Under the pieces are notes generated by a model that saw only the letters and a program-made list of their open reading frames with translations, did no database searches and was not told where the DNA came from. From positions 74,412,652-74,476,651 of the forward strand of contig ML679961.1 in NCBI GenBank assembly GCA_007922225.1: 64,000 bases of DNA. The letters are read 5' to 3'. A program made the translations under genes and the position numbers. The DNA comes from Emydura subglobosa. Lineage: Eukaryota; Chordata; Testudines; Chelidae. Numbering within the stretch: the stretch's first letter is position 1; each line of letters starts with the position of its first letter. Below, in pieces: positions 38,246-47,720 of the stretch.

Positions 38246-38740
38246 CACCATGTTGATACTATATTCCAAAGAAAATTGCACATGGCTTCTAGTTTGCTGC
38301 ATGTTTTAATACTTTATTTTGCATTTTATTAGTAGAAAATGATCAACAATAAAAAGGTCATTAACTGCTGTTAAACAAAAGAAAAAAACAAGAGTCTTGT
38401 AGCACTTTTAAGACTAACAAATTTAATTTCTGCAGGCATAAGCTTTCATGGGCTGTAACCCACTTTGGTTCACCTCAGATGTAAGGAACAGAAATCAGAG
38501 AGGAGGTATATATATATCTAAGGATAAGTAACAACAATGGGAAAGTTAGGTATGAGCAAAGTCCATTCAGTTAGAGTAGTTGAGGCCTATTCACAACCAT
38601 TGATTAGGAGGTGAAAATGTGTGAACAGTGACAATTACTTCTTGTAATGAGATAACCATTCCAAGTCCCTATTTAGACCCAGTTTAATTGTGTCAAGTTT
38701 GCATATGAGTTCCAACTCTGAAGTTTCTCTTTGAAGTCTG

Positions 38741-38910
38741 TGGCACTTTAAAGACTAACAAATGTAATATTTGCAGGCATAAGCTTTCGAGAGACTTCAG
38801 CTCTCTTCTTCAGATGCTGCAAATATTACATTTGTTAGTCTTTAAAGTGCCACAGAACTCTCGTTGTTTTTGCTGTATACAGACTAACACGGCTACCCCT
38901 CTGGAACTAT
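38741..38910 (-). mobile_element. 170-bp fold-back PLE terminal-repeat insertion
   Basis: Inserted in the GIY-YIG frame with an exact 13-bp target duplication, TCTTTGAAGTCTG (38728-38740 and 38911-38923). It consists only of PLE terminal-repeat sequence: a tail (38856-38910, with 'gtatacagactaacacggct' as in copy 3), then a perfect 39-bp inverted repeat (38738-38776 and 38817-38855) around a 40-base centre. The outermost three bases of the left arm overlap the target duplication, which may be microhomology. It has no protein-coding part, so it must have been mobilised in trans or be an extreme truncation product. Confidence 0.8.
38776..38813 (-). ncRNA. Hammerhead-ribozyme-like motif
   Basis: On the minus strand the order is CUGAAGA, then A, a stem-loop GAGAG-cugaagu-CUCUC, then GAAA, a short GC-UUAU-GC hairpin, and CC. 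CUGANGA and GAAA separated by stem II are the core of type I hammerhead ribozymes, and such ribozymes are known in PLE terminal repeats. Stem I would be the 39-bp perfect inverted repeat that flanks it. Departures from the ideal are an extra A between the core and stem II, and C rather than U where position 16.1 should pair with A15.1. Activity is therefore uncertain; ancestry is likely. Confidence 0.5.
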
Positions 38911-39734
38911 TCTTTGAAGTCTGTTTTTGAAGTTTTTTTTGTAGAAGTATAGCAACTTTCAAGTCAGCCACAGAGTGTCCTGGGAGATTGAAGTGCTCTC
39001 CTACTGCTTTATGGATGTTACCATTTTTTATGTCTGATTTGTGTTCATTTATTCTTTTGCGTAGTGACAGTCCGGTTTGGCCAATGTACATAGCAGAGGG
39101 GCATTGCTGGCACATGATGGCATATATTACATTAATAGATGTGCAGGTGAATGAGCTCCTTATGATGTGGCTGATGTGATTAGGACCTGTGATGGTGTCA
39201 CTAGAGTCGATGTGTGGGCAGAGCTGGCAATGGGGTTTGTTGCAGGGGTATGTTCCTAAGTTAGTGTTCTTCTTGTATGGTGTACGGTTGCAGGGGTATG
39301 TTTGCTTCAGGTTGGGGGGCTGTCTGTAAGCAAGGATAGGTCTGCTTCCTACAGCTTGAGCAAGTGAGGGATCAGCTGCTAGGATAGGTTGTAGATCCGT
39401 AATGATGTGCTGGAGAGATTTTAGTTGGGGGCTGTAGGTGATGGCCAGTGGTGTTCTGTTGTTTTCTTTGTTGGGTCTGTCCTGTAGTAGGTGACTTCTG
39501 TTAAACACCAGTTTTTAAAAGGAAAATATTATTCTCAGATGTCCTAAGTATCAGTCAGCATTTCACCCTTAATAAAAGGCTGTGCAGTGTTGTGCTATCC
39601 AGTGGCACCCCAGGAAGAAAAATGCAACTCTGTGGCCATGTCTACTTGGGAACATAGGAAAGTGAAGGTAAAGCAACTAAAGGTGTTAAATCAATACCCA
39701 GATTCACCTTAACTTTCATGAGTGGCCCACTATA

Positions 39735-47092: not shown

Positions 47093-47125
47093 CAAAATCT
47101 TTGGAAGAGAAACACAAATCACATA

Positions 47126-47720
47126 AAAACAACGAAGGTCCTGTAGCACCTTAAAGACTAACAAATTTCTGCAGACTGTCACTACGCAAAAGAATAAATG
47201 GACACAAATCAGACATAAAAAATGGTAACATCCATAAAGCAGTAGGAGAGCACTTCAATCTCCCAGGACACTCTGTAGCTGACTTGAAAGTTGCCATACT
47301 TCTACAAAAAACCTTCAAAAACAAACTTCAACGAGAAACTGCAGAGCTGGAACTCATATGCAAACTTGACACAATCAGACTGGATCTGAATAGGGAGATG
47401 GAATGGTTATCTCATTACAAGAAATAATTGTCACTGTTCACACATTTTCACCTGCTAATCAATGGTTGTGAATAGGCCTCATCTACTCTAACTGAATTGA
47501 CTTTGTTAGCACTTGCCCTCCCCATGTTATGTTTCTCACCCTTAGATGTATATGTATATCTCCTATCTGTGTTTTCACTTCATGCATGTGACTAAGTGGG
47601 TAGCAGTCCACGAAAGCTTATGCCCACAGAAATTTGTTAGTCTTTAAGGTGCAACAGGACCCTCATTGTTTTCGCTGTATACAGACTAACACAACTACCC
47701 CGCTGGAACTTTTCACATAG
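47126..47720 (+). mobile_element. Penelope-like element, copy 3 (short, with inverted arm)
   Basis: A 595-bp insertion bounded by a 9-bp duplication AATCACATA (47117-47125 and 47721-47729). Left arm 47127-47175 (…caccttaaagactaacaaat) is the near-perfect inverse of the right tail at 47624-47671. Between them are the last 83 codons of the PLE frame, a 3' UTR and a decayed hammerhead-like hairpin (47583-47625, 'gtgggtagcagtccacgaaa'). The 3' end carries 'gtatacagactaacacaact', as in the nested insert at 38.8 kb. It belongs to the same family as copy 1 but is in the opposite orientation. Confidence 0.8.
47176..47427 (+). pseudogene. PLE GIY-YIG C-terminal fragment, copy 3
   Basis: An open frame of 83 codons without start, from LSLRKRINGHKSDIKNGN through AVGEHFNLPGHSVADLKVA to LNREMEWLSHYKK and a TAA stop. 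It overlaps copy 1 from the catalytic-type Arg helix to the C-terminus and shows the natural C-terminus that copy 1 has lost to its nested insert. It starts directly at the inverted arm, so the GIY and YIG motifs are missing and it cannot be active. Confidence 0.8.

Follow-up and report, generated by a model that had tools for sequence, protein, structure and literature searches.

A 170-bp insert (38741-38910) that folds back on itself interrupts the endonuclease frame of a Penelope-like element (PLE), itself truncated at the 5' end, in a 64,000-nucleotide stretch of the Emydura subglobosa genome (the window), raising the question of whether so compact a palindrome is a mobile unit in its own right or a product of PLE integration. 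The original prediction, made from the sequence of the window, took it for a minimal, non-coding, PLE-derived unit that had moved on its own with the help of PLE enzymes, comparable to a retrozyme or a SINE. We confirmed that the feature at 38728-38923 (Table 1) is real and represents an insertion flanked by a target duplication of its own, and found the interpretation to be partly supported, or half right: PLE enzymes are likely the mobilising agent, while the evidence set out below argues against independent movement.

Table 1. Features of the insert, its host PLE and a second PLE copy in the window
Feature	Position	Strand	Basis or remark
Host PLE, 5'-truncated: GIY-YIG endonuclease frame and hammerhead-like end, without tail and without inverted arm	38378..39497	-	Bounds from its target duplication
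Host PLE target duplication (CTGTTAAACA), left copy	38368..38377	none	Flank comparison
Host PLE target duplication (CTGTTAAACA), right copy	39498..39507	none	Flank comparison
Target-site duplication of the insert (TCTTTGAAGTCTG), left copy	38728..38740	none	Exact repeat search
Left arm, antisense PLE terminal sequence	38741..38776	-	In the proposed model, a cDNA whose priming took place at the left
Hammerhead-like segment, antisense on the + strand, left side only	38777..38816	-	Resembles the minimal PLE hammerhead; no Rfam hammerhead match
Central joint between the two putative cDNAs	38816..38817	none	24-mer across the joint (38805-38828) has a single genome match
Right arm, sense PLE terminal sequence	38817..38871	+	Inverted-repeat and family mapping
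Tail, taken as the stretch between two RT start sites, ending GGAACTAT	38872..38910	+	Compared with PMC11167929 and PMC3846280
Target-site duplication of the insert, right copy	38911..38923	none	Exact repeat search
Second PLE copy: left inverted arm (site 1 type), endonuclease fragment, right sense arm and tail (site 2 type)	47126..47712	+	Alignment

The 13-mer said to flank the insert on both sides occurs exactly twice in the whole window, at 38728 and at 38911. The duplication measures 13 bp, or 14 bp with the adjoining ambiguous T included, and 13 shared exact bases occurred in none of 2000 random pairs of 45-mers from the window (pairs less than 300 bp apart skipped). Between these copies lie only PLE terminal sequence and the tail, as predicted, with the coding part absent. 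The inverted repeat, given as 39 bp, is indeed perfect and measures 40 bp (38737-38776 and 38817-38856); its four outer left bases belong to the target duplication, so that 36 bp pair within the insert. The minus strand of the insert folds far more stably than shuffled sequences (z = -8.7). Since the left arm begins approximately 54 nt upstream of the tail end, its outer part is shorter than in most copies. Selection for pairing, which had been suggested as a cause of the perfect arms, need not be invoked, since 40 paired sites at 5% divergence still have a probability of 0.135 of being identical.

The centre of the insert resembles what we take to be a minimal PLE hammerhead, and this resemblance is what stands of the hammerhead-like centre originally described: across the whole window no Rfam family reaches its gathering level, and at E <= 5 over 38300-39600 there were 18 matches, all below gathering scores and none to a hammerhead. 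Sixteen of these weak matches cover the fold-back and 15 of the 16 are to miRNA models, which we attribute to the perfect stem, rejecting a miRNA identity.

The host frame matches the Pfam GIY-YIG family (PF01541) at 24.8 bits against a cut-off of 22.6, and a protein search placed proteins of two turtles, Chrysemys picta and Caretta caretta, nearest to it. Using the frame that spans the insert, the same kind of search gave no match, although the database includes turtle PLE proteins. The claim that ignoring the insert restores the host frame holds for the order of the sequence but not for a single frame, owing to a one-base shift within an A-run immediately right of the insert. A paralogous empty site is provided by the second PLE copy (~47126-47712), which is continuous over the insertion point with a single, diverged target sequence, and whose endonuclease reads across that point in one frame. 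This copy also has the plan of the insert at larger scale, with an inverted arm, an endonuclease fragment, a sense arm and a tail. The duplication adjacent to it is just 7 bp (TCACATA at 47119 and 47713), and another match, AATCACATA, lies nearby. The PLE terminal sequence had no matches in viral and prokaryote contig collections.

Searching the 1.93-Gb assembly that contains the window with the insert as query returned 2112 first-look candidates. Forty of these were scored, 39 of them matching over nearly the whole unit, and the fold-back copies are dispersed in the genome. All 39 other loci that were fetched and aligned are compact fold-backs with mostly similar outer ends, variable left ends and a centre that varies from copy to copy, one of them having a shorter right end (L021) and another its tail at the left (L047). 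A flanking direct repeat scoring at least 8 was present in 38 of 39 insertions tested (the original insert and 37 of 38 other loci, L042 being the exception; L047 was left out), compared with 28 of 1480 mispaired flank controls, and thus the search proposed in the original prediction, for further copies lacking PLE coding sequence and bearing their own duplications, succeeded. Fold-back insertions too short to hold coding sequence, flanked by target duplications of their own, are common in this genome. L020 and L025, both counted in this test, are one insertion, present between the same flanks on contigs C873 and C877 and representing either an uncollapsed haplotype or a segmental duplication in the assembly.

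Such abundance, together with the individual duplications and the mostly constant tail end, is what would be expected of a self-contained, non-autonomous element, retrozyme- or SINE-like, whose fold-back unit is transcribed and copied by PLE enzymes, and the variable left ends would suit 5' truncation; the joints, however, make this reading highly improbable. With one mismatch allowed, the insert's own joint 24-mer (38805-38828) matches once in 1.93 Gb, whereas a 24-mer that is off the joint by about 10 bp (38771-38794) matches 779 places and its reversed control none. The same junction in all copies, raised in the original prediction as a sign of a normal part of the family, is not seen. Two-segment fitting of 51 short insertions (the original insert, 37 of the 39 loci of the first sample and 13 short two-ended loci of the 74-bp arm-and-tail sample described below; L025, L047 and L067, which is L022 again, were left out) gave 49 distinct pairs of joint coordinates. 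The most widely shared joint tested, that of L010, is held in common with L011 and is present at three genome places with one mismatch allowed, far from the many loci with one joint expected of a SINE-like element; this recurrence favours a mobile unit, and the third place has a different left start. L045 and L046 also have one joint in common in the two-segment fitting. Neither pair consists of nearest relatives, as they rank 25 and 223 of 703 pairs, and rare re-copying of a fold-back may have occurred in these cases. Tandem repeats with a hammerhead in each unit, as in retrozymes, were likewise not found, the loci being single fold-backs bounded by direct repeats and nearly each having its own joint.

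Comparison of the arms points the same way. Among 36 copies (L025, L036, L044 and L047 left out), the distance between the two arms of one copy was 0.035, and between copies it was 5.3% for left-left, 5.4% for right-right and 5.4% for left-right comparisons, with none of 5000 permutations giving a value as low as that within copies. Departures from the majority sequence were common to both arms in 15 cases and confined to one arm or different in 47, a balance that counts against the reading preferred below. Separate lineages of left and right arms are lacking, which argues against a copied master, as this would have given such lineages. Gene conversion between arms could equalise them, yet would not create new joints. 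Among the 51 joints, 24 have an overlap, 7 are blunt and 20 contain filler, and overlaps of at least 3 nt occur in 13 of the 31 filler-free joints compared with 14% of 500 simulated joints (p = 1.4e-4); the overlaps speak for the reading preferred below and the filler against it. Apparent 400-bp captures in L052, L060 and L078 were rejected, as they are mostly stretches of N; the palindrome centres of these loci read N, so that long fold-backs may be undercounted. One further fold-back PLE insertion has as its interior (L068:1691-2071, minus strand) an open 127-amino-acid stretch, which is related to R2 retrotransposon proteins in their C-terminal part (PDB 9nl3, E = 2.9e-21) and has no Pfam match above cut-off; it is apparently a captured piece of another retroelement's RNA.

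To ignore the joint, we searched with the 74-bp arm and tail, obtaining 597 candidates, of which 40, all identical to the query, were scored and mapped on a natural copy (L054) in stretches of about 1.5 kb per locus. An inverted left segment is present in 28 of these 40 loci and absent within ~1.5 kb from the other 12, so that many events look one-sided. Right ends are fixed by the query in this sample. Left starts cluster, with 22 of 28 falling within 12 nt (-32 to -43 relative to the tail end; site 1), two at -2 (site 2; L062 and L076) and the remaining four at -45, -48, -54 (the original insert) and -70. Direct repeats at the mapped left boundary, read by eye from the mapping and without a mispaired control, occur in 28 of 40 loci, 19 of which lack endonuclease sequence (14 fold-backs and 5 one-sided insertions). 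L055, L066, L070 and L077 extend hundreds of bases toward the coding part, from either side, and loci with identical 74-bp ends range from about 110 bp to more than 1 kb. Short, long, one-sided and endonuclease-bearing insertions therefore grade into each other, identifying the insert as a recurrent end product of PLE integration.

Reach, the length of cDNA represented by each arm, was compared in 37 of 49 mapped two-ended insertions, leaving out those with N (L052, L060, L078), two tails (L062, L076), other or unread interiors (L068, L095) or complex structures (L084, L085, L091, L105, L121), and keeping L092, which has no tail and whose sides were assigned by the analyst. The reaches of the two arms correlate (Spearman 0.69), with a difference of 30 nt or less in 20 insertions and of more than 100 nt in 11, and 49 of the 74 reaches lie between 80 and 190 nt. 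Correlated reach is compatible with a single RNA being short, or difficult to copy around the hairpin, and unequal reach argues against simple hairpin self-priming.

A further, tail-agnostic sample was drawn from the first 100 listed of the 779 places. Among these 100, 14 opposed neighbours lie less than 2 kb apart, all 14 in one order and none in the other, with 14 different spacings from 53 to 1219. The sample comprised 13 opposed pairs (L089-L101) together with L069, and 20 singles (L103-L122); L102 is not a pair, being two places 5 kb apart. Exactly one tail was present in 13 of the 14 opposed pairs, with none in L092, and a direct repeat scoring at least 9 in 11 of the 13 pairs L089-L101. 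Eight of the 20 singles are two-ended, each with a tail at exactly one end and four of the eight with a direct repeat, and six of the 12 one-ended singles carry a tail. Across all two-ended insertions, 21 of 22 thus have exactly one tail (p = 5.5e-6 against 50%, a baseline from the 12 one-ended loci, which is a small set), which suggests one start site per side. Exceptions are L062 and L076 of the 74-bp sample, with a tail at both ends. A clear target duplication is missing in 6 of the 22 two-ended tail-agnostic insertions, and some of the ends in this sample lie outside both start positions (e.g., -52, -66, -80 and -92). A tail at just one of two inverted ends has already been noted (PMC3846280).

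We therefore consider it very probable that the insert is a newly made, dead-on-arrival PLE insertion, formed by two-sided target-primed reverse transcription with joining of the cDNA ends. The PLE protein would cut both target strands about 13 bp apart, and PLE RNA would be reverse-transcribed with each target 3' end as primer, beginning at an internal start site: the tail end (site 2) on one side and ~39 nt or more upstream (site 1 region; 54 nt in the insert) on the other. The right cDNA would reach ~93 nt and the left ~80 nt, synthesis on both sides stopping in or beside the hammerhead-like hairpin, after which the 3' ends of the two cDNAs would be joined and gap filling would create the target duplication. 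The target duplication, two outward-facing copies of one terminus, two clusters of outer ends, private joints and the match of arms within copies are observed in the sequences; two-sided priming, a single RNA for both cDNAs and end joining are how we infer that they arose, and the products further suggest that one start site serves each side, that the arms come from one source and that fold-backs are copied little or not at all. Two-sided priming and joining would explain the features of the insert, so that no new element is needed, and the family as a whole fits PLE insertion, with its pseudo-LTR terminus, optional tail and inverted copy at the other end.

This mechanism has a published basis. 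According to PMC11167929, the protein of an anole PLE (PAc) cuts and extends both target strands in vitro, its RNA has two internal start sites with the tail being the stretch between them, and the integration steps after first priming are described as unvalidated. In the literature that we covered in part (few subscription papers and no supplements), we found no account of fold-back PLE insertions that lack coding sequence, nor any of a single start site being used on each side; further sources are PMC8969392, PMC6155905, PMC7936874 and PMC12910113. More tentatively, as a serious possibility that we stop short of favouring, PLEs may integrate by a coordinated two-sided reaction unknown in other retroelements, in which the two subunits of a dimer share one RNA, one of them starting at site 1 on one target strand and the other at site 2 on the opposite strand, such that each two-ended insertion would receive exactly one tail and fold-backs would be the normal short product.

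Other routes to a palindrome must be weighed against two-sided priming. Long inverted repeats are unstable, and the short fold-backs might be longer palindromic insertions whose centres were deleted later, a reading with which the short joint overlaps are also compatible. We consider it unlikely, given that one-sided short insertions with target duplications exist (L048, L051, L080 and L087), which indicates that short cDNAs form directly, and that copies with identical 74-bp ends, presumably recent, already span ~110 bp to more than 1 kb. About as improbable is a single cDNA that folds back and self-primes its second strand, as proposed for PLE palindromes in PMC3846280. Self-priming would account for arms that match within copies and for their correlated lengths, half or more of which differ little (20 of 37), but a copied hairpin would not give a tail at exactly one end, reaches differ by more than 100 nt in 11 of 37, and L066, L070, L077, L090 and L094 have arms of plainly different reach whose outer ends lie at the two start positions.

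Nor does the joint itself appear to mark the end of a hammerhead-cut template, where cDNA synthesis would run off at the cleavage site. Judged by eye, one arm of the insert and one of the second PLE copy end within about 5 nt of the presumed cut, which is taken to lie 96-98 nt from the tail end. None of the 74 cDNA ends in the mapped sample falls at that position, and we dropped run-off as scarcely credible.

The preferred reading, two-sided priming with end joining, shares with L1 twin priming the use of two primers at one target, an inverted segment and internal joining. In L1 twin priming the second primer anneals at variable internal positions; here, unlike in L1, priming on either side begins in one and the same terminal region, which yields fold-backs. 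PLEs of Adineta vaga and Drosophila with inverted pseudo-LTRs are closer still, as PMC3846280 describes for them an inverted terminal copy, a tail at one inverted end, a short target duplication and palindromes at the inverted joint. Those copies mostly surround coding sequence, whereas here the cDNAs are too short to leave any, and coding-free insertions make up a large share of those with identical ends (the 19 of 28 with a direct repeat at the mapped boundary). The anole PLE resembles our case in that both strands are cut and extended and its two start sites fit the two outer-end positions, but the available part of PMC11167929 reports no strand difference in start site, whereas the genomic products here suggest one site per side. 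Metazoan retrozymes, which carry a hammerhead and whose RNAs measure 170-400 nt, are likewise small and non-coding, occur alongside PLEs and may use their enzymes (PMC7229834); they are tandem repeats giving circular RNA, in contrast to single fold-backs nearly each with its own joint, and hence do not match the insert.

Although the insert is no more than a usual product of an element of known type, it is a very clean record of how that element inserts. The short fold-backs of this genome, of which dozens were mapped (one diagnostic 24-mer of the family occurs at 779 places), look like frozen products of the PLE reaction. Two-sided priming with one site per side can be tested on them directly by counting, from the way the outer ends cluster, the inequality of the arms, the private joints and the single tail. 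Compact PLE palindromes of this type do not warrant the name of a new mobile family, as they apparently arise afresh each time.
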